Of a stretch of DNA of 64,000 nucleotides, positions 15,064 to 62,400 are shown one piece after another. The stretch's first letter is position 1, and every line of letters starts with the position of its first letter. The stretch is from Neisseriaceae bacterium. GTDB taxonomy: Bacteria > Pseudomonadota > Gammaproteobacteria > Burkholderiales > UBA11063. The position numbers were made by a program, and so were the translations under genes. The notes under the pieces are model-generated. The model saw only the letters and a program-made list of their open reading frames with translations. It made no database searches and had not been told where the DNA came from. The DNA lies in the NCBI GenBank assembly GCA_947446595.1, contig CANFGS010000006.1, positions 1 through 64,000 of the forward strand, read 5' to 3'.

Positions 15064-15140
<77 letters not shown>

Positions 15141-15337: not shown

Positions 15338-16495
15338 CTAGTATTTTCCCACAAAATTATAACCTTTGTCTTCGGTTTTAGGTATCCATCTACCATATTT
15401 TTTAAATATCATCTCAACATCAACGTGTCCCATCTGAGTTGCTACCCACCAAGCATTCTCGCCATTAGATAATAATGTTGAGGCGAAAGTATGGCGCATC
15501 TGATAACAGTTCCGATATTTCACTTTTGTAGTGGCAAGTAAATACCGCCAATGTTCTGCAACCTTTTTACTACTAGACCATGCAATGGCAGTATTGGGAT
15601 TATGGAATACATAGTCACTATCTTTAGTGTAATTGAGTTGACAAGTAAGTGCTTCAAATGCCTTTGGCAACAGTATTATTTGCCTAGTGCCAGATTTAGT
15701 TTTAGTGCCTTTTTCAACGTTGCAAACCTTAGCTCGGCAAATATTGGCAAATCCATTTTTAAAATCAATGTCAGCCCATTTAAGCGCAATTAATTCGCTA
15801 ATCCTAAGCCCTGACCAGAAACCAAACTGTACAAGATTTTTAATTTGCCCGTGTGCAGCATCAATAATAGTTTGTTTTTCTATTTCATTAAATGGCTCAG
15901 CGTTAAAATCTGATTTTACTGATGCCACTTGAATTAATTTGCTTAATGCAATCTGTTCAATTGGATTATCTTTTAATAATCCGTCATTAATTGCATCAGC
16001 AAATAAATTACGTAATGGGGTTAAATAATTCCGAATTGTTTTAGGTGTGGCTTCTAAATTAGATATCCACTCTCTAATTATGGGAGCAGTAATGTCATTA
16101 ATATTGTACTTACCAAAATTAGGAATCAGTTGCCCTTTAATTACTTTGCGATAACCGTCAAATGTTGATGGTGACATATAACCATTTTCTACCATCCTAG
16201 CATAATTAGCCAATTGTTGCTCTAAAAGTTCTTGGCAATAATAAACCTTAATCTCCTGAATTATTCCAAGCCGTTTGGCTAATTTGGATTCAGGGAAGTA
16301 CTCGTTGTAATTAAAATCATTACGGGCAATTTTATTTAATATTTCAGCACGTAAATTAGTACAATACTTGATATTAGCTTTTGTTGGCGCAAGTTTTAGT
16401 GTTTCTCTACATCTAGTACCTTTGTACATAAATACTATTCTTAGAGTTTCACCCCTTACTTCAACACCCTGCGGTGTTATGATAGTTCGATCCAT
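15338..16495 (-). CDS. Tyrosine recombinase / phage integrase
   Basis: C-terminal GFWSGLRISELIALKW, YQMRHTFASTLLSNGENAWWVATQMGHVDVEMIFKKYGRW catalytic R-HxxR-H-Y motifs; adjacent to attL. Confidence 0.95.
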   Translation of the reverse strand: MDRTIITPQGVEVRGETLRIVFMYKGTRCRETLKLAPTKANIKYCTNLRAEILNKIARNDFNYNEYFPESKLAKRLGIIQEIKVYYCQELLEQQLANYARMVENGYMSPSTFDGYRKVIKGQLIPNFGKYNINDITAPIIREWISNLEATPKTIRNYLTPLRNLFADAINDGLLKDNPIEQIALSKLIQVASVKSDFNAEPFNEIEKQTIIDAAHGQIKNLVQFGFWSGLRISELIALKWADIDFKNGFANICRAKVCNVEKGTKTKSGTRQIILLPKAFEALTCQLNYTKDSDYVFHNPNTAIAWSSSKKVAEHWRYLLATTKVKYRNCYQMRHTFASTLLSNGENAWWVATQMGHVDVEMIFKKYGRWIPKTEDKGYNFVGKY

Positions 16496-19713: not shown

Positions 19714-20946
19714 ATGCAGCATATTTGTGGTAATGAAGTTGATACTAAAGGTAAATATGGAGAAAACCTAGCGTATGACCTTGCTAAAGTAGCTTTTTTA
19801 AAGCAATGGTGCTATCAAAACCCAAAATTAAATAATGGTAAAGAATTATGTGATTTATTGATAATTTTCGACGATATAATGCTAATTTGGTCAATAAAAA
19901 ATGTAAAATTAACTGATATATATTATGATGATGTTAATAAACCTATAAAGACTGGTACGCCATTTAAAATAAAAGAAAAGCATAAAGATAAAAGTAAAAA
20001 GCAACTCATTGGTGCATATAAAGAAATATTTGAACGCGACGCTATTATTGAACTACCAAATTATGGAGTTATTGATAAGAATAAGTTCAAAAAAATATTT
20101 TTATGTTCAGTATTTATCGGAGATAAGGAATTTTGCTCTCCTTTATTAGAGAGAGCTGATGGCTTATTGATCCACACCGTTCCTGAAGAAGACCTTAATA
20201 TATTAGTGCACGAGCTAGATACTGTAACTGATTTTATTGACTACTTTAAATTTAAAGAGTCATCATTTAAAAATATAGTAGTAAATGGGAATGAGGGCAA
20301 TTTATTAGTAACTTATATTAATTTTAAAAATAACACTAATGTAAATCTAAATAACTTTGACCAGATTATTGTAGATGACAATATATGGGAACAATGGAAG
20401 CAAGATACCCGATATCAACATAAAAAACGAGCTGATAAAATTTCTATAATATGGGATGAATTAATCGATAGATTTATTAATGACAATGATTTAAGCCACC
20501 CTCATAATCAATTAATGTTAACACAACTGGCAAAACCGAATAGGTTTCTTCGTCGAGTATTAGCATCATACTTTAGTGAAATTATAAGCCAACAACCTAA
20601 ATTGCTTTGTCGCTGTTTAGTATCAGCACAGTTAAGCGATGTAATATATTTATTTTTTAACATAAACCTAGATTTAAATCATTACAAGATATCTGATATA
20701 AATCCATTATTGCTTACTAGAGCTAGTATGGCTTTATATGAGTACCCTGATTATTCAAAAGTGATTGGCATTGTAAGGCTAGAGAATAACAGATGTAACC
20801 AATATTTATTCGCTCTGATATCAGATATTAAGCCATTAACAGAAGAAGATTATATACGGTATCGCACAGAGTATTCAAATTACACTAACACAACTACTAA
20901 CTTATCTAAATCCAATATACAAGAATATGAAAACTGTAATCAATGA
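19714..20946 (+). CDS. Putative solo PD-(D/E)XK nuclease-like protein, candidate defence gene
   Basis: N-terminal GKYGENLAYDLAKVAF...GKELCDLLIIFDDIMLIWSIKN resembles the E...D...(x)xK nuclease core; opposite strand to neighbours, inside the accessory block. Confidence 0.5.
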   Translation: MQHICGNEVDTKGKYGENLAYDLAKVAFLKQWCYQNPKLNNGKELCDLLIIFDDIMLIWSIKNVKLTDIYYDDVNKPIKTGTPFKIKEKHKDKSKKQLIGAYKEIFERDAIIELPNYGVIDKNKFKKIFLCSVFIGDKEFCSPLLERADGLLIHTVPEEDLNILVHELDTVTDFIDYFKFKESSFKNIVVNGNEGNLLVTYINFKNNTNVNLNNFDQIIVDDNIWEQWKQDTRYQHKKRADKISIIWDELIDRFINDNDLSHPHNQLMLTQLAKPNRFLRRVLASYFSEIISQQPKLLCRCLVSAQLSDVIYLFFNINLDLNHYKISDINPLLLTRASMALYEYPDYSKVIGIVRLENNRCNQYLFALISDIKPLTEEDYIRYRTEYSNYTNTTTNLSKSNIQEYENCNQ

Positions 20947-21034: not shown

Positions 21035-24000
21035 TTAGTTAGCCTGATTACTGCACATTTCTTTTGCTTGCTCCATAACGCTCACAATAGCAGCATCGCT
21101 TTTATCAGGTGGATAACCGTATTTTCTAAGCAAACGACGAATTTCCATACGCATGTTTGCTTGTACGCTTTCTCGCACATGCCAATCAACGCTCATATTA
21201 GCTTTAATTGTTTTAGTTAAGTCTTTGGCAATCAATTGTAATATTTCATCTTGCATTACTTCACGAGCTGATTCACTTTCAGCTAAAGCATCATAAAAAG
21301 CAAGCTCATCATCAGTTAATCCCATATCATGACCACGCTTGTGCGCATCATTGATTTGCTTGGCAAGCTCAATAAGCTCCATAATTACTTGAGTGGTTTC
21401 AATAGCCCGATTTTGATATTTTTTCAATGAGGCATATAATTTCTCAGAGAATTTTTTTGACTGAACTAGATTATTTTTAGCAAAACTTTTTACCTTGCCA
21501 GTCAACAGCTTATTTAGCAACTCAACAGCCACATTTTGCTGCTTCATCCCTCGTATTTCTTCTAAAAATTCATCTGAAAGAATCGCAATATTTGGTTTAT
21601 TAAGACCTACTGCACCCAAAATATCAATAACCTCATCCGATGTAATTGACTTAGATATCAACTGATTAATTTGAGTATCCAACTGGGCAGCAGTTTTTTT
21701 CTTGTTCTCTTCTGGAATCAATTTTATAATACCTGCTTTGACTCCTTTATAAAACCCTACCTCCATACTAAGTTTCTCAGCCTCAGGAACGGTTGCGCAT
21801 AATGAATAAGCCTTTGATAATTCGGATACTAATTTTAAGTAATCTTTCTTACGCTCCTCACGTAACCCGATAATAAAATCTATCGTTGCCACAATGGCAT
21901 ACATTCTATCTTGTGGAGTAGCAGTTAGCCCATTAATGCCAAAGAATTTTGAATAATCATGTCCATGTAGCAATTCACGAATTAAGTCTATTTTTTCAAG
22001 CATAATTTGAGCCGCTAAACCAGTATCAACCCCAGTTATTTCTCTATCCTGCTTGGTATACGCTCCAAGTGCATTGCGTAAATGCTCTGCGATACCTATA
22101 TAATCAACAACTAAACCGCCTTGCTTATCTTTAAAAACCCTATTTACCCGTGCAATTGCCTGCATCAGATTATGTCCACTCATTGGTTTATCGATATACA
22201 TGGTATTCATACTAGGCACATCGAATCCAGTTAACCACATATCACGAACAATAACTATTTTTAGTGAGTCATCATTATCTTTCATGCGTTTGGCTAAAGC
22301 GTCTCTCGTTTTTTTAGTACCTATAAATGGTTGCCATGCTGAATTATCAGATGATGAACCAGTCATAACAACTTTAATCACACCTTTGTTTAAATCATCA
22401 CTGTGCCATTGTGGTCTAAGCTCTATAATTGCCTCATATAGACCAATTGCAATTCTTCGTGACATGGCAACTATCATTGCTTTACCGATACTAGTTTCTT
22501 GCGCTGCTTGACGCTTTTCAAAATGATCCACAATATCCTGTGCTACCAATTTAATACGGCTATCTGAACCCACAATAGCTTCTAAGCGTGACCATTTAGA
22601 TTTTAGTTGCTCTTTTTGATTATCTTCCTGAAACTCTGTTATTTCGTCGTACTCTTGGTCTATTAAATCGGCAACGGCATCTGGCAAATCTAATTTAGCA
22701 ATACGGCTCTCATAATAGATTTTGACCGTCGTACCGTCTTCTACTGACCTGGTCATGTCATAAATATCAATATAATCACCAAACACCGCACGAGTATTTT
22801 TATCAGTTAGTTCAATTGGTGTACCAGTGAAGCCAATATATGAGGCATTTGGCAAACTGTCTCTCATATATTTTGCATATCCGTATTTGACATCAACTGC
22901 CTGGTTATCATTTTGTACTTTTGCAGCAAAGCCATATTGACTACGGTGTGCTTCATCAGCAATAACTACCACATTTGACCTGCTAGTTAAAATTGACATT
23001 TGGGTATCACCATTTGCCTCTGGAGTAAATTTATGAATTGTGGTAAAAATTACTCCGCCAGCTTCACGATTTAATAACTTCCGCAAATCTAATCTATCTT
23101 TAGCTTGCACTGGAGTTTGACGTAATAAGTCTTTTGAATTAGAAAATGTAGCAAATAGCTGATCGTCTAGATCGTTTCTATCAGTAATTATCACCACCGT
23201 CGGATTTCTAAGTTCTTTTGCTGATACTAATAAACCCGCATAGAATACCATTGACAAACTTTTGCCAGAACCTTGCGTGTGCCACACCACCCCAGCTTTC
23301 TTGTTCCCCGATAAAGATGTTGCATCTATGGTACTACGTAATGCTTTATTGACAGCATGATATTGATGATAACCAGCTAAAATTTTATAAACATTATTGC
23401 CGTCAGTTTGAAATAAAGTAAAGTTTTTAATCAAATTCAAAAATGTAGCGTGATTTAAACTGCCACGAATCATTACCTCTAATTGCGGAATTGACAGCGG
23501 TGCTATATCATTACCATCAATAGTACGCCACATCATAAAGCGGTCTTCATCTGAGGTAAGTGTTCCTATCCTAGCATTAATCCCATCACTTATGATTATG
23601 AATGAATTATAGGTAAACAAGGATGCGATTTTATTTTTATATGTTTGTATTTGGTTAAATGCTTCACTAATACCCACATTTTCGTCTGACGAACTCTTAA
23701 GCTCAATAACAACCAATGGCATCCCATTAATAATCACAACTAAGTCTGGGCGTTTTTCCACATTGTTTTCAATCACCGTAAATTGAGACGTTACCGCCCA
23801 ATCATTATTTTGCGGATTTTGAAAATCAAAGATTTTAACTTTTTCAGTTTTAAATAAACCATTATCCTGCCTGATACTAACATCAATACCGTCAGTCAGC
23901 ATTTTATGGAATGCTTGATTGTTTTTAATTAGTGAAGGGCTTTGTGGTATAGATATTTGATGTAGCGCATCAATGATTGCATCAGGTGGTAATTTTGGAT

Positions 24001-24178
24001 TTATTCGCTCTAAAGCAAGCTGCAATCTATCACTGAGTAATACATCATTAAAGTTTTTACGCTCTGGGTATGCGCCATTAGGGGAAATATCATTTGCAGG
24101 TAAAATATTATATCCAAGCTCTTCCAGCCATGATAATGCAGCTTGTTCCAAATCTGCTTCAATAAAACTATTACTCAT
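21035..24178 (-). CDS. hsdR: Type I restriction endonuclease subunit R
   Basis: RPDLVVIINGMPLVVIELKS nuclease motif, VVWHTQGSGKSLSMVFYA, DEAHRSQYG, SYIGFTGTPIE. Confidence 0.97.
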   Translation of the reverse strand: MSNSFIEADLEQAALSWLEELGYNILPANDISPNGAYPERKNFNDVLLSDRLQLALERINPKLPPDAIIDALHQISIPQSPSLIKNNQAFHKMLTDGIDVSIRQDNGLFKTEKVKIFDFQNPQNNDWAVTSQFTVIENNVEKRPDLVVIINGMPLVVIELKSSSDENVGISEAFNQIQTYKNKIASLFTYNSFIIISDGINARIGTLTSDEDRFMMWRTIDGNDIAPLSIPQLEVMIRGSLNHATFLNLIKNFTLFQTDGNNVYKILAGYHQYHAVNKALRSTIDATSLSGNKKAGVVWHTQGSGKSLSMVFYAGLLVSAKELRNPTVVIITDRNDLDDQLFATFSNSKDLLRQTPVQAKDRLDLRKLLNREAGGVIFTTIHKFTPEANGDTQMSILTSRSNVVVIADEAHRSQYGFAAKVQNDNQAVDVKYGYAKYMRDSLPNASYIGFTGTPIELTDKNTRAVFGDYIDIYDMTRSVEDGTTVKIYYESRIAKLDLPDAVADLIDQEYDEITEFQEDNQKEQLKSKWSRLEAIVGSDSRIKLVAQDIVDHFEKRQAAQETSIGKAMIVAMSRRIAIGLYEAIIELRPQWHSDDLNKGVIKVVMTGSSSDNSAWQPFIGTKKTRDALAKRMKDNDDSLKIVIVRDMWLTGFDVPSMNTMYIDKPMSGHNLMQAIARVNRVFKDKQGGLVVDYIGIAEHLRNALGAYTKQDREITGVDTGLAAQIMLEKIDLIRELLHGHDYSKFFGINGLTATPQDRMYAIVATIDFIIGLREERKKDYLKLVSELSKAYSLCATVPEAEKLSMEVGFYKGVKAGIIKLIPEENKKKTAAQLDTQINQLISKSITSDEVIDILGAVGLNKPNIAILSDEFLEEIRGMKQQNVAVELLNKLLTGKVKSFAKNNLVQSKKFSEKLYASLKKYQNRAIETTQVIMELIELAKQINDAHKRGHDMGLTDDELAFYDALAESESAREVMQDEILQLIAKDLTKTIKANMSVDWHVRESVQANMRMEIRRLLRKYGYPPDKSDAAIVSVMEQAKEMCSNQAN

Positions 24179-24675
24179 TGTTGTATATCCCGATTATATT
24201 TAGTCCAGTTGATTTTAACATAGTCAAACATTCCACGAGACAAGTTGCAATCTGGGTAAATTATCTTAAATGCTGCTAATGCCTCATCAAAGCTTTTATT
24301 CACAAATTCCCCATTGATTGCTAAAAATAACATTGCTATTCCAGCAGAACGAGACATACCTTGATTACAGTGTACCAACACTTTTAAATCATCACTCAAA
24401 TTGGTATCAATAAATGTTAGAGCTTCATCAATAATACTATGTGCAATGTAATCTACCTTGTCTACATCAACTAGGTTTAATATCAATCGACTACCTCTTT
24501 TTGCTATCAGATATTCGGGATGATCTTTCGGAGCTCCGTTAGTTTTATAACCTAACGCTTCCCTGTGATAAGGTTCTTTACATGCGTGAACAATTGCCCA
24601 ACCACTTTGAAATCGAACACTGCTATCGTAGTCAAATTGACTACCAACATATAAATTATTGTATACTTCAATCAT
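24175..24675 (-). CDS. Dual-specificity protein phosphatase embedded in the hsd operon
   Basis: VLVHCNQGMSRSAGIAMLFL (HCx5R P-loop) with DSP-like fold; overlaps hsdR start by ATGA, starts 4 nt after hsdS stop. Confidence 0.88.
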   Translation of the reverse strand: MIEVYNNLYVGSQFDYDSSVRFQSGWAIVHACKEPYHREALGYKTNGAPKDHPEYLIAKRGSRLILNLVDVDKVDYIAHSIIDEALTFIDTNLSDDLKVLVHCNQGMSRSAGIAMLFLAINGEFVNKSFDEALAAFKIIYPDCNLSRGMFDYVKINWTKYNRDIQQ

Positions 24676-24679
24676 AAAT

Positions 24680-25966
24680 TTAAACTCCGTGTGTCACGTC
24701 AATTTCACCTGACATGAGCTTTGGTAATAATGAGTCTCGAATATTCTCAAGTTTTTTACTTTCCACGCAGGTATTGACAAAATAGTCCACAATGGGCGAG
24801 ATAATTGCATTTAATTTTTTTAGTTGTATTGCATCTGGAATCAAAACTTTAGCACTTGAAAGATGTTTGCGTTGGATATGACCCATAGTAGTCGCTTTAT
24901 CTTGAGCCACTCCAATAAAATACTCTAAATGATGCTTAGTCCAATAATAATAAAACCACTTTGGATAGCTATCGGAAGTTATTTTAAACAGATGTTGATT
25001 TAATCCACCCATGCCACCACACCATATGTCCACCAAAAGTGTTCCAGACCATGAAAATACAACGTCTCCATTTGCCAATTTATACGTATTAGCTATGTTA
25101 TAGCTACATCGATCACTACTATCATCAACGTATCCTTGCCGTAACTCCTTAATTTTTATCACAGGTAATGACAATTCATTATCTTTTGGTCGATATTTTT
25201 GCATAGCAAGCCCATTTGTAAATGTAGCAACTTCATCTAAATTTTTTATCTGCCAACCTTTGGGGATTTCGCCAAACTCGCTATCAATCATAGCGCCACC
25301 AGAGTCTTTATATGGAGTGCCATTTTCATCTGGGAAATTAAAATCTATTATCCATTGCTTAAATATAATTTGGGTTATTTCATCTAATTTTTTACTGATC
25401 TGTTGGTTTACCTCTATTTTGTCATCAAGACAGGATAATATATCAGCAATTTTTTTCTGTTTTTCTAGTGGGGGTAAATTTATCACTAAATTTTTAACAT
25501 CGCTAGGACTAATATTTGCTTGATTTGCTGCTCCACCAGCATTTTTGGCTAAATAATATCTAATCTCACTCTGGATTATATGGTAGTATAAAAAATTATA
25601 ATCAATGGAATTTTTATCAGTAATTATAAATTTGCCCACACGTTGATTTAATAAAAGCTGGGGGCATTTCAATTTAACTCTACCTACTTTACCAACGGCA
25701 GACGCAAATTGATTAACGTTAGAACCTGTAAGAGATATTAATATATCATTAAAAAATAACTGATATTTACTTTTACTTTCAAATAGTTCATAATCTACAT
25801 ACTGAACATCTTCTAATGTTACATATGGAGAAACAATATTTTTAATTTTTATTACAGGAACCCCAACATTCTTGAAATCAGTAGTTTTAAAAGCATATCC
25901 AGAGATTATATCTACCACATCCCCTAGCTTTTTAACCATCCAATCAGTTGGCAATTGTTTCAACAT
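24680..25966 (-). CDS. hsdS: Type I restriction-modification specificity subunit S
   Basis: Two target-recognition domains with conserved repeats (LPPLEKQKKIADILSCLDDKIEVN; GEIPKGWQIKNLDEVATFTNG). Confidence 0.95.
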   Translation of the reverse strand: MLKQLPTDWMVKKLGDVVDIISGYAFKTTDFKNVGVPVIKIKNIVSPYVTLEDVQYVDYELFESKSKYQLFFNDILISLTGSNVNQFASAVGKVGRVKLKCPQLLLNQRVGKFIITDKNSIDYNFLYYHIIQSEIRYYLAKNAGGAANQANISPSDVKNLVINLPPLEKQKKIADILSCLDDKIEVNQQISKKLDEITQIIFKQWIIDFNFPDENGTPYKDSGGAMIDSEFGEIPKGWQIKNLDEVATFTNGLAMQKYRPKDNELSLPVIKIKELRQGYVDDSSDRCSYNIANTYKLANGDVVFSWSGTLLVDIWCGGMGGLNQHLFKITSDSYPKWFYYYWTKHHLEYFIGVAQDKATTMGHIQRKHLSSAKVLIPDAIQLKKLNAIISPIVDYFVNTCVESKKLENIRDSLLPKLMSGEIDVTHGV

Positions 25967-25975
25967 GCAGCACTC

Positions 25976-27478
25976 CTAGAAATCAAACCCAATATTTCCT
26001 AACTTATCCCTTACCTCATCCTGTAAGTGATTAGATTTAGCAAACATTTCAGCAAGTTCAGAGGTTAATCTTTGCATCTTATCGTCAAATGGCTCGCTTT
26101 CTACATAAGCCTCTTCCGAACCAACATAACGTCCTGGAGTCAAGATATACTCATGCTGCCTCACTTCATCTAGCATACTAACTTTACAAAACCCTTGAAC
26201 ATCTTCATAAGCCTGATCGTACTTCCATTTATGGTAAGTATCTGCAACCAACTTAATCTCATCATCTGATAATTCACGATGTTTGCGTGTTACCATCATT
26301 CCTAGCTTACGAGCATCAATGAATAATATCTCATTCTTTCTGTCATGCCCATTTTTAGACTTCTTGTTTTTAGTCACAAACCATAAGCAAACTGGGATAG
26401 TCACTGTATAAAAAAGATTGGTAGGCATAGTTACAATACAATCTACCAATCCAGCTTCAATAATATTTTTGCGGATTTCCAAGTCCTCTTTAGTATTGCT
26501 TGACATTGAGCCATTAGATAAAACAAATCCAGCAATCCCATTTGGGGATAATTTAGAGACCATGTGTGAAATCCAGGCATAGTTTGCGTTATTCGCAGAT
26601 GGTACGCCGTATTTCCAACGTGCGTCATCTTTCAATCGCTCACCCCCCCAATCTTTGATGTTAAATGGTGGGTTAGCTAAAATATAATCAGCTCTTAAAT
26701 TCTTATGTAAATCACCACTAAAAGTATCGGCATCTCGTTCACCTAAATTACCATCAATTCCTCGAATTGCTAAATTCATTTTGCACAAACGCCAAGTTGT
26801 TGCGGTATATTCTTGCCCGTAAATATGAATGGCATCTTTTCTACCTTGATGCTCTTCCACAAATTTTTGACTTTGTACAAACATGCCACCGCTACCGCAA
26901 CATGGATCATACACCCGACCTTCGTATGGTTCAATCATCTGTACCAATAATTTAACTATTGATGGTGGAGTATAAAACTCACCCTCTGATGAACCAAAAT
27001 TGCTAAGAAAATACTCATATACACGTCCTAAAACATCTTTTGCCCGTGATTCTTTATCACCAAGTTTGAAAGAAAACAAATCAACTAATTCACCTAATTT
27101 GGTCTTATCTATCTCAGGACGAGCATAATTTTTAGGTAATACCCCCTTCAGACTAGGGTTGTTTTTTTCTAGCACAATCATTGCATTATCAATAACCTGT
27201 CCAATATTTGGTTGCTTGGCGTGATTTTTGATAACTTCCCATCGAGCATCAGTTGGAACGAAAAATACATTATCTGCAATATATGCATCTGCTATTTCTT
27301 CTTCGGCATTGCCATCATTAATAAGCTGGTTATACTTCTCCTCAAATCCATCTGATATATATTTTAAGAATATTAAACCTAATACTACGTGCTTATACTC
27401 TGATGATTCAATATTACCTCTGAGTTTATCTGCCATGTCCCATAAAGACTGTTCAAAACCTAAATTCATAGTTGCCAT
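25976..27478 (-). CDS. hsdM: Type I restriction-modification DNA methyltransferase subunit M
   Basis: VYDPCCGSGGMFVQ, YILANPPFNIKDWGG, N-terminal ALWDMADKLRGN-like helix. Confidence 0.97.
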   Translation of the reverse strand: MATMNLGFEQSLWDMADKLRGNIESSEYKHVVLGLIFLKYISDGFEEKYNQLINDGNAEEEIADAYIADNVFFVPTDARWEVIKNHAKQPNIGQVIDNAMIVLEKNNPSLKGVLPKNYARPEIDKTKLGELVDLFSFKLGDKESRAKDVLGRVYEYFLSNFGSSEGEFYTPPSIVKLLVQMIEPYEGRVYDPCCGSGGMFVQSQKFVEEHQGRKDAIHIYGQEYTATTWRLCKMNLAIRGIDGNLGERDADTFSGDLHKNLRADYILANPPFNIKDWGGERLKDDARWKYGVPSANNANYAWISHMVSKLSPNGIAGFVLSNGSMSSNTKEDLEIRKNIIEAGLVDCIVTMPTNLFYTVTIPVCLWFVTKNKKSKNGHDRKNEILFIDARKLGMMVTRKHRELSDDEIKLVADTYHKWKYDQAYEDVQGFCKVSMLDEVRQHEYILTPGRYVGSEEAYVESEPFDDKMQRLTSELAEMFAKSNHLQDEVRDKLGNIGFDF

Positions 27479-27886: not shown

Positions 27887-28546
27887 CTATAATAGCTTAC
27901 CTAATAAATAAACAACTCTACCTATAACCCTCAACTCATCATCACCGTTAAAATGTTTTTCTGGATAGGCTGTGTTTTCTGAACGTGCTATTAATTTGCC
28001 TGATCCTAGCTCTTTAAACATTTTTTTTATGAATATATCATTATGTACTGAAATAGCATAAATACGGTTATCAAGTATTTCAATTTGTGCGGTATCTACA
28101 ATAACTTTTTGTCCATCGTGTAATTCAGGAGTCATGCTATCACCCTGTACTTCGAAAATACAAAGGTTTTCCTCTTTCCATCCAAATATTTTAATATCAT
28201 TGCGATCTACAGCATGATGACGAACGATATCCTGCTCAAATATTGTATTGCCGTTACCTGCTGATAAGCGATTAGCATATACTGGGATTTGCGCTACTGT
28301 TTCATATTCATTTGCCCCATCTTCAACATCAAGCTGACCTGGCTGGAGTTTAAATAATTGTTCAACTGTCTTTGCTACTTTAGAACCAAATTGTCTAGTG
28401 CCATTTAAAATCATGTAGTATGGAGTTGGACTAATACTATACTTTTTTGCAAAAGCATTTACCGAGCCCTCAAAATGTTCTTCAACCAACCGCAAGAAGT
28501 TATTAACTCGAATTGCGTTAACTCTATCACTCACTTTATACCTCAT
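27887..28546 (-). CDS. CI/LexA-like phage repressor with S24 peptidase domain
   Basis: N-terminal HTH region, IFEVQGDSMTPELHDGQKVIVDTAQ and later Lys-containing FIKKMFKEL segment. Confidence 0.92.
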   Translation of the reverse strand: MRYKVSDRVNAIRVNNFLRLVEEHFEGSVNAFAKKYSISPTPYYMILNGTRQFGSKVAKTVEQLFKLQPGQLDVEDGANEYETVAQIPVYANRLSAGNGNTIFEQDIVRHHAVDRNDIKIFGWKEENLCIFEVQGDSMTPELHDGQKVIVDTAQIEILDNRIYAISVHNDIFIKKMFKELGSGKLIARSENTAYPEKHFNGDDELRVIGRVVYLLGKLL

Positions 28547-35703: not shown

Positions 35704-37320
35704 ATGCACCAAATAAAGCTAATTCTGGATAAAATCAAGCATGGTACTGCAACCAATAGTGAAATTGAGTTAGCTAATAGCTGGCTACTATTACAAAAAA
35801 TAAATAACTTTGCTAACTTTTGCAAATTCATGATACCTGAATTTGATTGGCAATGGTATCACGACATCATTATGAATAAAATACAGCAGTTAATTGATGT
35901 TGGGCGTGGTAATTTGATTATTGAGATGCCACAACAACACGGAAAAACAGTTGTGGCAGGAGTATTACTGACCAGTTATATTTTTGGTCGCTTTCCTGAG
36001 AAGCGATTGGTTTATGCCACCTATAATGAAGAGCGTGCCAAGGACGTAGTACAAAACGAAATCTTGCCCATGATTATGTCGGATATTTATTCACAGGTAT
36101 TTCCTGAGAGTAAAATCAAATGGAATGTTGAGGAAGAGTTAGATAGTAAGATCAAGAAAAAGAAAGAAGCCACAGCTCTGGGATTTAGTAACGTTAATTC
36201 TAATCGTGGTGGTTTTAAAGCTGCTGGACGCAGAACCATGCTAACTGGTAAACCAGCACATCTACTTATTATTGATGATTATTTCAAAGATGATTCAGAA
36301 GCATTTAGCCCTAAAATTAGAGACCAGGTTTGGAATTGGTATGCAACAACTGCTCGTACTCGTCAGCAAGTTAATACTATAAAAATCGTATTTGCTACCC
36401 GTTGGCATAGTGATGATTTAATCGGTAGAATTAAAAAAGAAAGTTTACTCAATAGAGACAATCCAGACTATATTCAATGGGATATTTTAACTTTCCCTGC
36501 ATTAAAAGAAGCTCATCACGCTAATTATGAGTATGACAAGCGTAAGATTGGCGAATATCTAGATGTTAACAAAAAACACTTATACGCTGAATTTAAGACA
36601 GACATTCGTGCTTGGCGTGCGCTATGCCAACAAGAGCCGCTGGATGAGAAGGGCTTAATATTCCAGCGTGATTATTTCCACCAATACGAACAATTGCCTG
36701 AAATACAGCAAGTGTATATTTCAATTGATACCAATTTTACTAAAACTGCCAAGCATGGTGATGATTGCGGCATTACTGTATGGGGAACTAATAATCATCG
36801 CTATTATTTACTGGATTTTTACAATGCTAAATACAATTTTATTGAGCTAAAAAATAAGGTGGTAGACCTAATTAAGATTTACCCCAATTATGCTGGCATA
36901 TTGGTAGAACTAAAAGCTAATGGTGCAGCACTAGTAGATGAACTAAACCAATACTTCCCTAGAGTTTATGGCATTGACCCAGAAAATAAAAGCAAATTAC
37001 AGCGGGCGCAGTATGTACTGGATGAATTTGTAAATAACCGAGTATTCGTGCCAACTAAGCAATTACAACCAAGAATTGATTTTTATATCGAGCAACTATG
37101 CCAATTCACTGGGCAAAAAGATGGCGTGGATGATCTGGTGGATAGTACCACCATGTTTTTAGGTTATGTGAAGCACACTATTATTCGCATACCTAGCCTT
37201 GAGAGCTTAAATAAGCTGGCAATACCTAATTTGGCTAATAAACTCTTCGGCAAGCCAAGAATGAGCAAAATAAATGCTACTGTAACCTCAAGTGGTTTTA
37301 GTCGGAGACGATTATGGTAG
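35704..37320 (+). CDS. terL: Terminase large subunit
   Basis: EMPQQHGKTVVAGVLLTSYIFG, HLLIIDDYFKDDSEA, IVFATRWHSDDLIGRI, VYISIDTNFTKTAKHGDDCGITVWG. Confidence 0.94.
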   Translation: MHQIKLILDKIKHGTATNSEIELANSWLLLQKINNFANFCKFMIPEFDWQWYHDIIMNKIQQLIDVGRGNLIIEMPQQHGKTVVAGVLLTSYIFGRFPEKRLVYATYNEERAKDVVQNEILPMIMSDIYSQVFPESKIKWNVEEELDSKIKKKKEATALGFSNVNSNRGGFKAAGRRTMLTGKPAHLLIIDDYFKDDSEAFSPKIRDQVWNWYATTARTRQQVNTIKIVFATRWHSDDLIGRIKKESLLNRDNPDYIQWDILTFPALKEAHHANYEYDKRKIGEYLDVNKKHLYAEFKTDIRAWRALCQQEPLDEKGLIFQRDYFHQYEQLPEIQQVYISIDTNFTKTAKHGDDCGITVWGTNNHRYYLLDFYNAKYNFIELKNKVVDLIKIYPNYAGILVELKANGAALVDELNQYFPRVYGIDPENKSKLQRAQYVLDEFVNNRVFVPTKQLQPRIDFYIEQLCQFTGQKDGVDDLVDSTTMFLGYVKHTIIRIPSLESLNKLAIPNLANKLFGKPRMSKINATVTSSGFSRRRLW

Positions 37321-39008
37321 CAAAAAATAATAATCAGCATAAAAAGCCACGCACATCGGCTAAAAATGTGCAATCTGCACCACAAACCACACCACAAAAG
37401 CCGTACCTGCGTGTTAGTGATATTCGCAAATTTGCCAATAAGCCACGCATGCCAAGCTCATTAAATAGCATCAACCAAACATTGCAGAACTTCCAAAACA
37501 TTATCTTTGATATGATGCCAGAATTGGATAGCAAACAAAAAGAAGCACTAGCTACGGCAATACCATATATGTATAACGTTGTGGGTGACTTTGTAACTAA
37601 TCCATCATCAGTTAGTATTAGCACCTTTCAACGCATGGCATATACCGATCCAATTATTGCTAATGGATTGGAGATTAATAGTGCATTAGTTACCCGCAGT
37701 ATTGGTGATTATTACCACGAGAATGAGAAAATACAAAAGCTAGTACGCTATAACCTAAAACACCTCAAAGGTGGTTTGCAGGGCTTGATTAAGGAAATGC
37801 TAACCTCAATGTGGGCTGGTTATTTCATTGGCGAGAAAGTAGTTGATGAAGAGAAACTCAAAACAACTGGCAAGTATTTAATTAGTCATGTTACACCGAT
37901 GCCACCAATAACCACAATATTTGCGGTAGATGAACAAGGCAACGTTAAAAACCGCAATGGCGTATTCCAATACATCATTAACTCATACACACCAGGTTAT
38001 CAAAATATGAACCTGCAAGAAGGCTCATTTATCGGTAACTTCAATGGTGCTGGGTTGAATTACAATAACGAGCTAATCGGTATTGACCCATTAGCAGCAC
38101 TTGGTGATTTAGATTATCCTGCACGCCAACCCTATATTCAGTTGTTTGGTTTAATTGAAATACCACGAGACAAGTGCATCCACTTTGTAAATCGCAGTAT
38201 TGATAATTTTAATAACCCATACGGTAGGAGTTTACTACGCCGAATCTATAATATTTACCTGCTTAAATATGGTATTCAGCAGTTTATGGCAATGGCATTG
38301 CAGTTTCGTGCATTCCCGCAAATGGTAATTTATACCGATGGACAACAGCAAATCCAAGATGATAATGGCAACATTACCACCAATTATGATGTTGGGCTAA
38401 AAGTAGCCGAGCAACGAGAAGGTACAGGCACATTTGTATTGCCTGGTATGAAAGGCACTTCATTTGATGTGCAGGCAGTTGACGTTACTGGTGAACTACA
38501 GGTATTTATCCAAATATTGCAATTTTACGACCAAGAAATCTACAAAGGTTTGGGTATTCCACCAAGTATGTTTGATAGTGGTGGTGGCTCATATGCTATG
38601 GGTTATATGCATGATAGCCTACACAGTAAAGTGCTTGGTGGTACTATTGATGAAGTAACCAGTTGCCTTATCAATCAATTAGTAGCTGACATTATTGATA
38701 AAAACTTTAAACCGTCAGAATATGATAACTTTGGTGCATTTAAAGAGCGAACTCTAACTTTAGATGATAAGCTCAAATATGCCAAATTATTTGAAACTGC
38801 CAGAAACTCTGGTATCTGTAGTACTCAATTAATGGATGACTTAAACCGTATGCGTGAAATACTGGATTTTACTTATACCAGCAAACCAGTACCTCAGGAT
38901 GTAGTAAATAAATCCCCAAATACCAATGATAACAGCACCAATGGTAAAAATACCAATATGCGGGATACCAAGCAAGATACCGCCACTCCTTATGCTAACT
39001 GGAGTTAG
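37314..39008 (+). CDS. Portal protein
   Basis: Follows terL; FVTNPSSVSISTFQRMAYTDPIIANGLEI...HFVNRSIDNFNNPYGRSLLRRIYNIYLLKYGIQQF. Confidence 0.85.
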   Translation: MVAKNNNQHKKPRTSAKNVQSAPQTTPQKPYLRVSDIRKFANKPRMPSSLNSINQTLQNFQNIIFDMMPELDSKQKEALATAIPYMYNVVGDFVTNPSSVSISTFQRMAYTDPIIANGLEINSALVTRSIGDYYHENEKIQKLVRYNLKHLKGGLQGLIKEMLTSMWAGYFIGEKVVDEEKLKTTGKYLISHVTPMPPITTIFAVDEQGNVKNRNGVFQYIINSYTPGYQNMNLQEGSFIGNFNGAGLNYNNELIGIDPLAALGDLDYPARQPYIQLFGLIEIPRDKCIHFVNRSIDNFNNPYGRSLLRRIYNIYLLKYGIQQFMAMALQFRAFPQMVIYTDGQQQIQDDNGNITTNYDVGLKVAEQREGTGTFVLPGMKGTSFDVQAVDVTGELQVFIQILQFYDQEIYKGLGIPPSMFDSGGGSYAMGYMHDSLHSKVLGGTIDEVTSCLINQLVADIIDKNFKPSEYDNFGAFKERTLTLDDKLKYAKLFETARNSGICSTQLMDDLNRMREILDFTYTSKPVPQDVVNKSPNTNDNSTNGKNTNMRDTKQDTATPYANWS

Positions 39009-39009
39009 T

Positions 39010-39243
39010 TTAATCGCTATAGTTATCGTTAAAATGTTTCTGAGCTACTCTGAGTGCTTCTTCCATAGTTGCATATACAGAGATAGTCTTATCATCATTA
39101 TTTTTACCATTGATTAAGCTAAGTTCAAATTGTTTAGTCTCTTTATTAAAGTAAATAGTATAAATCCATTGCGAACATGCAGGATAGGCATATAATCCAC
39201 CATCCTTGTTCCGCCAAGTTAAAAAATTGTAAACGTTGCTCAT
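39010..39243 (-). CDS. Small antisense hypothetical protein
   Basis: 77-aa ORF opposite to the structural operon, C-terminus ATMEEALRVAQKHFNDNYSD. Confidence 0.5.
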   Translation of the reverse strand: MSNVYNFLTWRNKDGGLYAYPACSQWIYTIYFNKETKQFELSLINGKNNDDKTISVYATMEEALRVAQKHFNDNYSD

Positions 39244-39347
39244 TAAAGTGCCACAATAAAAAAGTTATTATTGCAGCGATATTAGCACAGTAGAAATATG
39301 ATTTTTTGCGAAAATTCGGGAAATGCTCTGGTTAAATTTTAGGTGAC

Positions 39348-39377
39348 TTTACTTCATAGCGAAGTGTACGCTATAAT
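39348..39377 (+). promoter_or_regulatory. Sigma70-like promoter for the paralogous gene pair
   Basis: TTTACT-18 bp-TATAAT with ACTTC/GAAGT and TAGCG/CGCTA inverted repeats in the spacer. Confidence 0.5.
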
Positions 39378-39482
39378 CCCAGCAACTCATGCTACAAGAG
39401 CATGAAACAGGGAATAATCAAGGATTGGTACTCCTTAATTATTCGTTCACTAAATAACCTTTATTTCGCAAAGGAATTAGCT

Positions 39483-39917
39483 ATGCTTCATGCATCCACT
39501 ATTTTACTACAGTCGAACATCCTCGACAACCAATCAATAATTAGGCGTTATCTATCAGTAGTTGACGAAGTATTAAAACAACTGCAAGCTCTAAAAATAG
39601 ATGCTGCTGTAACTACTGTTGTTAAAAATATACCTAATTATACTCAAATTGAATTAATTGAGAACTTAATTAGCCTGTGTAGATTAACAAGAAAAGACGG
39701 TACAACCACCGATTTTGATACTTATGCAAAAGAACTATTAGCCCAATTTTCAATTAATGAGCAGTTCTGCATTTTAGCTCACACAGATTTATCATCTGTG
39801 AATAATAACGTTGAAGACGTTGCATCCTCATTAGCCCTAAATTTTTATGATGTTATTCATCACTCCTTGATAAGTAGTGCCACCAAAGATAATGGAGGTA
39901 CACCATGTCAAATTTAG
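39483..39917 (+). CDS. Hypothetical moron protein, paralogue A (re-called start)
   Basis: From MLHASTILLQSN; aligns with the downstream ORF from its start, unlike the 39402 start in the ORF track. Confidence 0.6.
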   Translation: MLHASTILLQSNILDNQSIIRRYLSVVDEVLKQLQALKIDAAVTTVVKNIPNYTQIELIENLISLCRLTRKDGTTTDFDTYAKELLAQFSINEQFCILAHTDLSSVNNNVEDVASSLALNFYDVIHHSLISSATKDNGGTPCQI

Positions 39918-40312
39918 ATTACATCCTACTAAAAAACACTAATTTTGATAAAAAAGCGGTCATCAATAAATTTGCAAATCTCATTGATGATATTTTAGTC
40001 CAATTTAAAGCTGATGGTTTTGCTGATGCGATTGCTGGCATAGCCAAATGTGTGCCAGATGAAGCCAAATTAGGCTTAATTGATGGAGCTATTAAGGGTA
40101 AGTGTGAAATTCTAAAAGTTACTGATCTGCTAACCGATGGACAATTCAACAATTATGTCCCAAGAATATTGGCAAATTTAACGATTAATGAGCAGTTTTA
40201 TGTATTGGCACATATCGATTTAAGTTTGCTCAGAAATAAAGTAGAAGAACCAAATTTAGTGTTCGCTAATACAGTGTACTCAATTATTCGAAGTAGGATA
40301 ATTTGTAAATGA
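39905..40312 (+). CDS. Hypothetical moron protein, paralogue B
   Basis: Shared NEQF(Y/C)(V/I)LAH(I/T)DLS block and N-terminal ILLxxxxxDxxxxIxxxxxxxDxxLxQ pattern with paralogue A. Confidence 0.6.
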   Translation: MSNLDYILLKNTNFDKKAVINKFANLIDDILVQFKADGFADAIAGIAKCVPDEAKLGLIDGAIKGKCEILKVTDLLTDGQFNNYVPRILANLTINEQFYVLAHIDLSLLRNKVEEPNLVFANTVYSIIRSRIICK

Positions 40313-40342
40313 TTTATGTCAAAATGTTACGCTAATGAACAA

Positions 40343-41176
40343 TTATGGTTTATCATTTTTTATAACTGGTAAACCAATCCTACATAAATAGTTAGCAAAT
40401 CTTTGAGATAAACTTTCTCTAAATAACTCATTTACAGTTGCTAGGTATTTATCTTTATACTGATTATTAAATAGTTCAAGTATTGGCACAGAAAAATAAC
40501 ATTTAAAATCCACGACCAATTCAGGTATTTCGCTATATTTACTTAAAAAGTGATATCGATCTTCTTTATTTTGGCGAAGTCTTTTTTTTGCAGTATCACT
40601 AGACCAATCAGTCATAGAGGTTATTTTATATATTTCCTCAAGATATGTATTATCAAAAACCTTAGCGGAATTAAACGCTGGAGCTAATAGTATATTTGGA
40701 ATAAATTGTTTTACTCTAGTTGGTTGGCTATCTTGTTGAATGGAATATAATTTAGTTATTTCATAGTTCATACTTTCTAAATCACATTCTTGAGACAAAA
40801 CAACTACATATGGAAATGTTATTTCACCATCACCATAAGGACTTTTAATACTAAAGTTGACTAGAACATCTCCCTGAGAAATTCTCACTTTTTGTTTATA
40901 CCCATCAAATAAAGTATTGATTTTATCATAATACAATTCAATGCCATCTGCAAGGGTTGATAAAGTTAAAGAAGATTCATTGTTTCTAAATTTTAGTGGA
41001 ATTATTTCTTTGTTAAACACTTGAAAATAATTATTATCATTTGTTTTGTATATGCCATTAATATTAGGAATTTCTTTTTTGATATTTTCAGAGCTTAAAT
41101 GAGAAATTGAATAATTATCATACCAAAATTCTTTTGGTTTAACAAGGTATAATCGCTCTATCTTACTTACCAACAT
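40343..41176 (-). CDS. Uncharacterised 277-aa protein with LSQECDLE motif (candidate cargo/defence)
   Basis: Third gene of an antisense three-gene operon. Confidence 0.5.
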   Translation of the reverse strand: MLVSKIERLYLVKPKEFWYDNYSISHLSSENIKKEIPNINGIYKTNDNNYFQVFNKEIIPLKFRNNESSLTLSTLADGIELYYDKINTLFDGYKQKVRISQGDVLVNFSIKSPYGDGEITFPYVVVLSQECDLESMNYEITKLYSIQQDSQPTRVKQFIPNILLAPAFNSAKVFDNTYLEEIYKITSMTDWSSDTAKKRLRQNKEDRYHFLSKYSEIPELVVDFKCYFSVPILELFNNQYKDKYLATVNELFRESLSQRFANYLCRIGLPVIKNDKP

Positions 41177-41408
41177 GTCGAGGTGTCTCTAGATAATAAT
41201 TATGTCTGAAAGACTCTTCAAATTCATGAATTCCGTTTTCTAATTTTTCAAAACTATTTAGATTAAATGTAGACCTATTAAAATCTGAGTTACTAATAAT
41301 ATTATCAGAATCCAACACTTGAAATTGCTCAACTATAGGCAACTTAGTTTTATTATACCTTTCATTTCCTACAACTAGATAATTTTTTACTTTAGGATTC
41401 ATGCTCAA
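41163..41408 (-). CDS. Small hypothetical protein, middle gene of antisense operon
   Basis: Overlaps both neighbours (14 and 17 nt), suggesting translational coupling. Confidence 0.5.
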   Translation of the reverse strand: MSMNPKVKNYLVVGNERYNKTKLPIVEQFQVLDSDNIISNSDFNRSTFNLNSFEKLENGIHEFEESFRHNYYLETPRHVGK

Positions 41409-42147
41409 CTCCCATTATTTTTCGTACCTTATCGGTTATTGATTTTTCAAATAATTTTTCAATTGAAGTATGGAATTTATTAATATGAGTCTCAAATAAC
41501 TTTTCGTTCAGTACATTAACCGCATAACAGTCATAATCCAATATAAACTCATTTTTTGACACTCTAGCTGGAAAATCTGGATTTAAAATCCCATAAATAA
41601 AATTCATCAAATAGCTATCATAATTAAAAATAGTTTGTCCAATAGAACGTGCAATGCTACGTTTATCTTCCTCTTCAAAAAATCTACTAACTGGTGTTGA
41701 TAATGCACTATTTACATATGAAGTCCAACTTAGTGGATCATTTTTAGGGATATTCAGTTGATTAATAAACCTCAATCCAATCCTATTCAAAAAATCCACA
41801 CTACTTACTTTATTAAAAACATCTAAAATAGTTCTTGTAAACACCACATAAGCCTCAAATGTTTCATAACGAGTCGTATTAATGAGAATAAAGTTTGGTG
41901 CAAATGTCACCTGAAAACTGTTATTATCGCTACTAAATATTCCTAGAGGTTCTTTTTTTAGATCGTTTTCTACTAATCCATCCTTAATTTTTGAGGTAAA
42001 TTGATTCAATTCTTTTACTTCAAATTTAGAAAATATATGTCTCAAATCTTCATTGAATTTGTTTAGTAATTCATTATCAAAGTTTGTTATAGCATTAAAG
42101 TCAAGCCTTAAAATAACGCTAGTTATAAAATTTGTTTTATATTTCAT
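41392..42147 (-). CDS. TIGR04255-like sporadically distributed protein
   Basis: Pattern ITSVILRLDF...FVAPNFILINTTRYETFEAYVVFTRTIL...VDFLNRIGLRFINQLNIP resembles TIGR04255 members. Confidence 0.65.
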   Translation of the reverse strand: MKYKTNFITSVILRLDFNAITNFDNELLNKFNEDLRHIFSKFEVKELNQFTSKIKDGLVENDLKKEPLGIFSSDNNSFQVTFAPNFILINTTRYETFEAYVVFTRTILDVFNKVSSVDFLNRIGLRFINQLNIPKNDPLSWTSYVNSALSTPVSRFFEEEDKRSIARSIGQTIFNYDSYLMNFIYGILNPDFPARVSKNEFILDYDCYAVNVLNEKLFETHINKFHTSIEKLFEKSITDKVRKIMGVEHES

Positions 42148-42326
42148 ATAGTTGTTAGTCCGTAAAATGGAACTTGCATTAATAGTCTATGCTAGGAGTT
42201 ATTTTACCATATACTGAGTCACTCACAATCATATTAAACAAACTTATCACATGATAATCTTCACTTATCCAGAATCACCATTAGAAACAGCACAACTCTG
42301 CCATCATCAGTAAAATTGCTTCCTAT

Positions 42327-43676
42327 ATGGAGCAATTATCAATGCAAAACAATAAACCCAATAAATACGTATTTAGTAATACTGGTGAGGTGCAAACCTA
42401 CCAAGAGCAGGACGATGCTTTAATTGTTACAGCATTGTTATGCAAAGTTGGTACTTTTACCGATGCCAATGGCACAGAAGTTAATCTCAGCAAAGCGCAA
42501 CTGCAAGGCTTAGTTAATACCTACAATTTGGAGGTAGAGGCTGAGTATAGCAAAATTCAGGCTAATAAAAAAGAGCCAATCGGTCGCATATTCCTCGAAA
42601 AACTCCTGCGTAAAAAAACACCAGAATTATCTCTTGATGAAGTAACGCTTGCTCCAGTTACTACCGAACATACGCTACATAACAGCTTCGTTGTAGGTAG
42701 AGTTCTTGGTCGGCTTGAATTTAAAGAAATAACCGACACCTATGGCGAAATCTGGGGTAAATTATTTATCAGTACCAAAGAGTATGTGGATAAGGTCAAA
42801 GGTGGCATTTTAAACCAAATCAGTATGGCATTTTATCCTGATAGCAATAAGCTGGAGGAAATTAGCTTCACAGTATATGGTGCTATTGATGGTGCGCAAA
42901 TTATCAAGATGTCACAAAATGGTATTAAACCAGATAAAACCATGTTAGCCACTACTATTGGTGAACTGAGCAAGAAACTATCTGCTATCAACAATGAGAT
43001 CACCGACATTGATACCAAATTATCTGCAGTTAGAAATAAACGAAGTTTGGAACGCACCGTTCTGGGCTTGGTACAGTTCGGTAAGATTTACCCACGTGAC
43101 CGTGATTTATTGGTAACCAATTTAGTTAATATGAGTTCGGATAATGACCGCAATATTTTACTTAGCACAATTAAATTATTACCCAATGCAGTTGATTTGC
43201 GGGTGTATAACAAAAATAAACAAGCATTTAGGATGGAGGAATTAGTGATGTCCAAAGATAAAACCGTATTAGTGCAAACTGCTGAGGAAATATCCAACGC
43301 TGTGCAGGAAAGCCTTAAATTATCAAAGAATAAGGAATCCGAAGCTAATACTACTGAAGTAAAACCAGAAACCAAGTTATCTGAGCCAGATGCAGGACAT
43401 GATCGCCAGCATTTCACCAAAGAGCATGCAGCAATTTTATGCGATATGCTTAAAAATGGCAAAAACAATGATGCTATTGATTATCTTAAAAAGTTTACTG
43501 ATGAGGCAATTGCTACTGAGGAAATCCAACAAACTGCTTTAAGTGATAATAAACCAGAAAGCAAGCCAACTGATGAAAAGCATCTTGAAGATGAAAAAAC
43601 CAAAAAAGAAGAACTAAAAATGAGCGTATTGTCGCAAATCTCAAAACTAACTGATATTTTACATAAGCTACCATAA
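42327..43676 (+). CDS. Putative prohead protease/scaffold-like protein
   Basis: Position before decoration and capsid genes; N-terminal protease-like domain and charged, coil-rich C-terminus. Confidence 0.55.
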   Translation: MEQLSMQNNKPNKYVFSNTGEVQTYQEQDDALIVTALLCKVGTFTDANGTEVNLSKAQLQGLVNTYNLEVEAEYSKIQANKKEPIGRIFLEKLLRKKTPELSLDEVTLAPVTTEHTLHNSFVVGRVLGRLEFKEITDTYGEIWGKLFISTKEYVDKVKGGILNQISMAFYPDSNKLEEISFTVYGAIDGAQIIKMSQNGIKPDKTMLATTIGELSKKLSAINNEITDIDTKLSAVRNKRSLERTVLGLVQFGKIYPRDRDLLVTNLVNMSSDNDRNILLSTIKLLPNAVDLRVYNKNKQAFRMEELVMSKDKTVLVQTAEEISNAVQESLKLSKNKESEANTTEVKPETKLSEPDAGHDRQHFTKEHAAILCDMLKNGKNNDAIDYLKKFTDEAIATEEIQQTALSDNKPESKPTDEKHLEDEKTKKEELKMSVLSQISKLTDILHKLP

Positions 43677-43686
43677 GGAGGCATCA

Positions 43687-44127
43687 ATGATACCAGCACC
43701 ACAAAATAAAACCCAGTTGCAGCAAACCTATACTAATTTATGGGCAACTGACCCATCATTAGCCTATTTTATTGATGTAGAGTTAGCACCCAGCACCAAT
43801 ACTGATGGCTACCAGCCTGGCTGTATTTTAGCCCAATATACTGCTGGGCAATATCAAGGTCAATGTGTCAATTACGATCCGAGTGGTACAGATGGACAAA
43901 ATGTAGCCTTGATTGTATTAACTGACCAATACCTCACTCCAGATGCACAAAAGTTGGGTACACAAGGTCAGGCATTAGTGCAAGCGGTATTAGGTGGTGC
44001 TACATTTTATCAAGACCAAGTGTACTTTAATAAGCAAGATGGTACAGATAATATTGCACCAGCAATTGCGCAAATTGGAGGCAAGATTGCTTTTGGTCGT
44101 GTTGGCTTATATGCAATTGGTACTTAA
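43687..44127 (+). CDS. Putative head decoration/cement protein
   Basis: Position directly upstream of the capsid gene; beta-rich Gly-rich sequence. Confidence 0.5.
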   Translation: MIPAPQNKTQLQQTYTNLWATDPSLAYFIDVELAPSTNTDGYQPGCILAQYTAGQYQGQCVNYDPSGTDGQNVALIVLTDQYLTPDAQKLGTQGQALVQAVLGGATFYQDQVYFNKQDGTDNIAPAIAQIGGKIAFGRVGLYAIGT

Positions 44128-44139
44128 TATGATAGTTTT

Positions 44140-45507
44140 ATGGAGCACAAAATGACTATAGATCAAAATTTACTTATCAAAGCCCAGAAGATTGCCGAAA
44201 AAGTCCGCTCTCAAGTTGGAGTTATTGACGTTGAGCAATTACTGGAGTTTGGCAGAGCCGAAATTAAAAAATCAGGTAATCTAACTAAAAAAGTTCAATT
44301 TTCAACAGATAGCACTATTAGTGTCGGACAGTATGGTGTTGTGATTGATAATATCCGCCGTGATTATGGTTCAACTGAGGATTCAACCTTTAGTTTAGAT
44401 GATTATTTCCCTGAACGTTTTAGTAATATGCCATATATTGTAAACTCAATTCTTGAAGGTAATACAGGGCTATTACCGCCAAGAGCATTAGGTCAACCAA
44501 TACCACAAGTTAAACGACTCAATATTAAGTCCACTACATTTAGTGCTGCTGGTTATGCAGGCGGTATGTCATTTGGTGAATTAGATATGTTCCTACGTAA
44601 TTTAAGCTCTCAGGATATTTCAGAGAACGGTTTGGATACTTATCTAATCTACAATGAGCTAAAACTATTAACTCAATTATATTCACGCAAGAAATTGCTT
44701 ACTGCTCAAGCAGCAACGTTAGGACAGATTGAATATGAGTCTGATGGACAGTTTGACTTTCAGGCTAACTACGGAATACCTGCAGAAAATATTGTCCGCC
44801 CAATATCAGGCAACTGGCTAAATCCAAATAACACGATTAACCAAAATGCAATGCCATTTCAGGATTTGTCTTATATTTTAGATCGTTATCCACCATTTTA
44901 TAAGTTCAGAAGTGCCTATATGCGTGGTGGTAAATTAATCATGAATCCGACTACTGCCGATGGCTTCTTGAACAATATCAATAACAACGAATGGGCAAGG
45001 AACATCTTTGGCAATGCTGCCATATTTAAACGTGCCACTATGGATATGTGGTTACAGCATATGTACCCATCTGGCAATTTGCAAGCAGTTATTGAAGATG
45101 ACATGTATATTGATGATGATGGAGTTAGCAGATATACTATTCCTGATGGACGTATATTAATTGGCTTTGACTCTGCATCGCATGGTGGTAGCTTGGGTGA
45201 GTTTGTATTTATTCCAGCGGCACAAAAAGGCGGATTATTAAATGCACAACCTGGTGTTTATACCTTATTGGAGGATTGTTCAGTACCAGGTAGTCGTGGC
45301 GGTGTGGGTAATCCATTTGTAAATATTATCGCTGGATTTAACGGCTTACCACGCATAGCCAATCCAAACAATATGTTAATCATTGATGTTTTAGCTGTAA
45401 ACAGTGACTCATCACCTTCATCATTTCAAGAGGAGCAATTAAATGACCGAGAATCAAATAACCAAAGAGCAAATACAAACAAACGAAAAGGTGCGAGTGC
45501 GACTTAA
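44140..45507 (+). CDS. Major capsid protein
   Basis: Position and size; DYFPERFSNMPYIVNSILEGNTGLLPPRALGQPIP, AAGYAGGMSFGELD. Confidence 0.75.
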   Translation: MEHKMTIDQNLLIKAQKIAEKVRSQVGVIDVEQLLEFGRAEIKKSGNLTKKVQFSTDSTISVGQYGVVIDNIRRDYGSTEDSTFSLDDYFPERFSNMPYIVNSILEGNTGLLPPRALGQPIPQVKRLNIKSTTFSAAGYAGGMSFGELDMFLRNLSSQDISENGLDTYLIYNELKLLTQLYSRKKLLTAQAATLGQIEYESDGQFDFQANYGIPAENIVRPISGNWLNPNNTINQNAMPFQDLSYILDRYPPFYKFRSAYMRGGKLIMNPTTADGFLNNINNNEWARNIFGNAAIFKRATMDMWLQHMYPSGNLQAVIEDDMYIDDDGVSRYTIPDGRILIGFDSASHGGSLGEFVFIPAAQKGGLLNAQPGVYTLLEDCSVPGSRGGVGNPFVNIIAGFNGLPRIANPNNMLIIDVLAVNSDSSPSSFQEEQLNDRESNNQRANTNKRKGASAT

Positions 45508-61665: not shown

Positions 61666-61709
61666 AAGTCGCTAAGCCTCTTAACAATGCTCAACCCAGC
61701 GACTTTTTT
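61666..61709 (+). terminator. Terminator (or short sRNA 3' end) after the late operon
   Basis: AAGTCGCT/AGCGACTT perfect 8-bp stem followed by TTTTTT. Confidence 0.55.
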
Positions 61710-62397: not shown

Positions 62398-62400
62398 CAG

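Follow-up and report, generated by a model that had tools for sequence, protein, structure and literature searches.

Accessory genes are known from type I restriction-modification (RM) operons: the type IC operon EcoprrI carries PrrC, and the RRDM island of EPEC carries DarTG2 (PMC12707154, PMC12255303). Phosphatases have also been tied to anti-phage defence, as in the prophage-borne KKP system (PfkA-PfkB-PfpC; PMC11341870) and in the DS-8/DS-9 metallophosphatase and HAD phosphatase systems, described without known targets (PMC13092281). The gene described here encodes a protein of dual-specificity phosphatase fold (DSP) and, like DarTG2, lies between hsdS and hsdR. Whereas PrrC and DarTG2 are toxins or toxin-antitoxin modules, DSP is a phosphatase without a toxin partner that also occurs in non-RM systems. 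It resembles KKP in being a prophage-borne phosphatase tied to anti-phage defence, but PfpC is a PP2C enzyme acting with two kinases and DSP has no linked kinase. KKP is defined by a PP2C and two adjacent Ser/Thr kinases; our protein matches DSPc instead, and no kinase motif pair was present in the fetched genome loci. The DS-8/DS-9 folds differ from that of DSP, and the portion of that report accessible to us mentions no DSP component. Searched against PADLOC-DB v2.0.0, including its PDC candidates, DSP matched none of the families at E up to 0.01. No description of DSP in type I RM was found in the searchable literature, which excluded a 2024 embedded-defence preprint (10.1101/2024.01.29.577857). 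Embedding between hsdS and hsdR is of a known kind; the phosphatase family and its spread over unrelated systems appear new within this searched scope.

The window, that is the whole 64,000-nt stretch analysed, derives from a Neisseriaceae bacterium with a genome of 1.74 Mb and contains four head-to-tail genes on the minus strand, with one overlap:

25976-27478, minus strand: hsdM, type I modification subunit, 500 aa (Pfam HsdM_N, E 6e-26, and N6_Mtase, 8e-104; PADLOC MTase_I, 781 bits)
24680-25966, minus strand: hsdS, specificity subunit, 428 aa, with two target-recognition domains (Pfam Methylase_S twice, 7e-35; PADLOC Specificity_I)
24175-24675, minus strand: DSP-fold phosphatase of the HACKEPYHR family, 166 aa, ATG start (Pfam DSPc, AlphaFold model, Foldseek)
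21035-24178, minus strand: hsdR, restriction/translocase subunit, 1047 aa (Pfam HSDR_N, SWI2_SNF2 and T1RH-like_C, down to 8e-119; TIGR00348, 615 bits)
24175-24178, minus strand: ATGA overlap of the DSP stop and the hsdR start (sequence)

With hsdM, hsdS and hsdR intact and adjacent, this is a type I RM operon. The coordinates agree with the order hsdM-hsdS-DSP-hsdR, the gaps of 9 nt (hsdM-hsdS) and 4 nt (hsdS-DSP) and the ATGA overlap described in an earlier reading of the DNA made without database searches (the sequence-only reading). By eye, a ribosome-binding-like GGAG precedes DSP and overlaps the end of hsdS. Since no clear ribosome-binding motif was seen by eye at the hsdR start, translation of hsdR probably depends on that of DSP. 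Translational coupling probably runs from hsdS through DSP to hsdR, which would match the levels of DSP and HsdR. A scan for an operon promoter and terminator gave sites no more numerous than in shuffled sequence.

The predicted protein combines the HCX5R[S/T] P-loop and the fold of the DSP superfamily, and three of its segments stand out:

24346-24372, minus strand: catalytic P-loop HCNQGMSRS, residues 102-110, with Cys103 and Arg109 (Cys and Arg invariant in alignments)
24466-24468, minus strand: Asp70, candidate general acid (Asp in 71/72 homologues, Glu in 1/72)
24496-24588, minus strand: family signature and putative recognition loop, residues 30-60 (HACKEPYHREALGYKTNGAPKDHPEYLIAKR; entropy)

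The full P-loop HCNQGMSRSAG noticed in the sequence-only reading is indeed there, at residues 102-112, and His102, Cys103 and Arg109 are invariant in all 72 aligned homologues. The DSPc match scored 35.5 bits against a Pfam cut-off of 33.5, and the AlphaFold model had a mean pLDDT of 94.6. Nearly all of the 72 homologues align across the full DSP length, and dN/dS was 0.05-0.24 in five close pairs, indicating purifying selection; the gene is therefore no chance open reading frame. Taken with the conserved residues, these data suggest that DSP is probably catalytically active. Its fold, CX5R loop and general-acid spacing are those of the eukaryotic-type DUSPs (DUSP12, DUSP8, VHR), the spacing from Asp70 to the catalytic Cys being probably DUSP-like. 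The best solved relatives in Foldseek were DUSP12 and other human DUSPs (TM-score about 0.6-0.75); assigning a substrate by fold was abandoned because only generic DUSPs were returned. The best viral structural match was a protein of Vibrio phage VpV262. This protein, ORF44, and the DSP of Vibrio phage 1.077.O belong to the same family (42-45% identity, TM 0.83-0.88) but are phage genes outside RM operons.

What sets the family apart from DUSP12, DUSP8 and VHR is the segment between the first core strands, which here is a family-specific HACKEPYHR...HPEYL. In the homologue alignment the mean entropy was 0.37 bits at residues 30-43, 0.58 in the P-loop and 1.3-2.1 elsewhere, making HACKEPYHRxALGY the most conserved stretch of the family, above the P-loop. 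This segment is the putative counterpart of the recognition region of other DSPs; the conserved loop could also be structural. The signature offers a direct handle for surveys, and a nearly invariant recognition loop would make the substrate question addressable with one purified protein.

The operon lies within a 47.9-kb prophage inserted at tRNA-Met and bounded by exact 23-bp att repeats:

15118-15140, plus strand: attL, at the tRNA-Met 3' end (exact 23-bp repeat TTCAAATCCAGCCCCCGCAACCA)
15338-16495, minus strand: prophage integrase, beside tRNA-Met (PHROG integrase, 9.5e-55)
27887-28546, minus strand: CI-like S24 repressor, sharing the strand of hsdM and upstream of it (Peptidase_S24; PHROG transcriptional repressor, 2.8e-28)
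35704-45507, plus strand: terminase, portal, maturation protease and major head genes (PHROGs)
62953-62975, plus strand: attR (second copy of the 23-bp repeat TTCAAATCCAGCCCCCGCAACCA)

Further prophage genes include RecT, an exonuclease VIII-like protein and replication genes (Pfam/PHROG). hsdM and the repressor gene share a strand, hsdM lying 408 nt downstream where lysogenically expressed cargo is placed, and such expression is predicted from this position. Residence in a prophage suggests that the RM-DSP operon serves as a superinfection-exclusion cassette. Two other regions of the prophage were noted. A 410-aa gene (19714-20946, plus strand) lies between the exonuclease and hsdR, divergent from the RM operon, and its PHROG matches are weak and of unknown function. 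At the right end (61668-62805) an abiF RNA (Rfam RF03085, 45 bits) is followed by genes of 186 aa and 134 aa, the former SocA/Panacea-type antitoxin-like by eye; together they may form another defence or toxin-antitoxin module.

DSP loci were retrieved from a species-level collection (one genome per species) via exact peptides shared with the window DSP, so the counts are biased towards close relatives. Genes in the fetched loci were called as mechanical open reading frames and family searches covered selected neighbours. At 21 of the 63 loci type I RM genes were found on the DSP strand. These loci come from no fewer than nine phyla, archaea among them (Balneolota, Cyanobacteriota, Melainabacteria, Chloroflexota, Planctomycetota, Bacteroidota, Pseudomonadota, Bipolaricaulota and Euryarchaeota). 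At 16 loci as well as in the window DSP has hsd genes on both sides, in many cases overlapping by 1-8 nt, and 41/61 loci had a same-strand neighbour within 60 nt. The survey for DSP between hsdS and hsdR that the sequence-only reading had proposed thus returned a recurrent, same-strand accessory inside hsd operons rather than an arrangement unique to this genome. In a congeneric genome (L062) hsdM and hsdS are followed, where the contig ends, by a DSP 89% identical to ours across 38 residues. At this locus (L062:2561-4536) a HEPN-like gene and an MNT-like nucleotidyltransferase segment were seen by eye to separate hsdM from the specificity region; this segment shares the reading frame of HsdS, which suggests an MNT-HsdS fusion.

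That reading also knew of no standard type I system with this component, and the phosphatase proved to be an optional rather than a standard subunit. DSP was present in 2/391 good genomes of the phylum, one copy being broken by a stop, while HsdR-like matches occurred in 217; given this rarity, co-location with RM is far above chance. Assuming a 5% chance of hsdR within 8 kb, the probability of at least 20/61 is 8e-12, a value to be taken as approximate only, since defence genes tend to cluster and the 5% was assumed without a matched control gene. No DSP was found in the fetched flanks of the other sampled HsdR loci of the order of L038.

Other DSP loci carry different defence genes. DSP follows GajA-GajB of Gabija at L056 (GajA-GajB is nearby at L010), follows a CD-NTase and an S_4TM effector of CBASS at L029, and precedes QatA-QatB-QatC-QatD at L018. 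Further neighbours are PifA (L051), AbiTii (L027 and L025, the latter inside an RM operon), LmuB-like proteins of Lamassu-like systems (L015, L028, L063), UvrD-PDDEXK proteins (L009, L050, L055), PrrC/RloC-like AAA_13 proteins (PADLOC PDC-S06; L043, L058, L066), the candidate defence family PDC-M68B (L013) and Eco57I-type RM (L012, L035). At several loci, for example L057 with its glycosyltransferases, no recognisable defence neighbour was found. A profile search of viral contigs gave 61 DSP loci, with hsd genes only at L066. Many viral copies lie close to terminase genes, a setting as compatible with a general phage gene as with a defence gene, and in two related contigs DSP and a terminase-like sequence are fused in frame (L120:7986-10289, L121:6593-8896). 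Lytic phages are among the carriers. As side observations, DSP is fused to DUF2971 in Oceanospirillum linum (L054:7923-9083) and adjoins a DUF2971 gene in a Prevotella assembly (L040:2-1761).

We favour, by a modest lean, the reading that DSP, which belongs to a DSP family of its own, is catalytically active as a phosphatase and is an optional accessory embedded in anti-phage systems that acts on one conserved, context-independent substrate. In the present case, where a type I RM operon in a temperate prophage houses it, it would most likely dephosphorylate one conserved infection-relevant substrate whichever defence system carries it, working alongside restriction without modifying HsdR or HsdM. 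More tentatively, DSP may be a general-purpose conflict enzyme that has been recruited by phages and by many anti-phage systems as unrelated as type I RM, Gabija, CBASS, Qat and Lamassu-like ones, and whose one shared phospho-substrate is made or exploited in infection. A phosphatase recurring across mechanistically unrelated defences and their phages points to such a common phospho-substrate of infection.

As to the class of substrate, the invariant charged loop and the neighbours in phages incline us slightly, on circumstantial grounds, to the phosphate of a nucleotide or nucleic acid rather than that of a protein. DSP might act on a nucleotide, a signalling molecule or a nucleic-acid end, in end-healing or signal-quenching; this is a substrate class within the preferred reading, so that our confidences in the two overlap, and taken by itself we find it possible though rather doubtful. 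Besides the charged recognition loop, it is favoured by Vibrio phage 1.077.O, where DSP overlaps the gene for a polynucleotide-kinase-type HAD 3'-phosphatase, by a Spiroplasma plasmid on which DSP follows endonuclease IV, by the phage copies fused to or near terminases and near a helicase and an exonuclease, by the PrrC/RloC-like AAA_13 neighbours and by a sub-threshold Pfam match to the Rit1 DUSP-like domain. However, each of these links comes from one or a few neighbourhoods, and the close structural matches are all protein DUSPs. A HAD-type phosphatase of one common family was also noted just downstream of DSP in three Bacteroidota loci (L020, L027, L045), echoing the HAD-DSP pair of Vibrio phages.

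The protein phosphatases among the best fold matches would suit a role against counter-defence, in which DSP reverses phosphorylation by phage-encoded protein kinases and so shields host or defence proteins. This would explain why defence systems of unrelated kinds use it and why a competitor-excluding prophage carries it. We nevertheless consider it unlikely: phage kinases are not universal, yet the recognition loop is nearly invariant, lytic phages themselves carry the gene, and a motif scan of the fetched genome loci found no protein kinase beside DSP, the only hits being Fic proteins in some RM loci. These Fic proteins (HPFxDGNG) were seen in DSP-carrying type I RM operons at L001, L004 and L017. 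It is improbable that DSP is a neutral passenger, in the sense of a mobile phage gene that settled in an insertion hotspot and has no defence role. The hsdS-hsdR slot has been suggested as a hotspot (PMC12255303) and viral contigs commonly carry the gene, but tight same-strand overlaps recur across unrelated operons, the gene is under purifying selection and its catalytic residues are retained everywhere.

The sequence-only reading was right to place DSP inside a type I RM operon; its suggestion of phospho-control of restriction is not supported and we judge it quite improbable. Under such control, restriction would be turned on or off by the removal of phosphate from HsdR (or HsdM) by DSP, for example after entry into a new host. 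The overlap of the DSP stop with the hsdR start would suit this, as would the reported phosphorylation of EcoKI HsdR (Cajthamlova 2007, as cited in PMC12707154) and the presence of HsdM in bacterial phospho-proteome lists (PMC4754617). The EcoKI precedent makes the mechanism a possible one, but nothing in the present data favours it. DSP also occurs in HsdR-less operons and in phages and is absent from most type I systems, and no alignment column separated RM-embedded from other DSPs (family-wise p 0.41). HsdR columns 785, 917 and 670, at which DSP-linked HsdRs showed an apparent Ser/Thr excess, were considered as phospho-acceptors and rejected as a lineage effect, the same residues being present in DSP-less HsdRs of the same order. 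After this same-order comparison no Ser, Thr or Tyr was specific to DSP-linked HsdRs. A PF00069 search of the host genome found no Hanks-type kinase above the Pfam cut-off. A single origin of RM embedding found no support either, as RM copies are scattered over the DSP tree and form no clade: RM context required 16 changes against a shuffled-label mean of 18.3, with modest branch support, and only three changes were forced by strongly supported branches. Some genomes hold more than one DSP. With no hsd gene within the fetched 20 kb, second, divergent copies lie at G448:C128:40104-40631 in the genome of L038 and at G449:C22:70339-70827 in that of L017.
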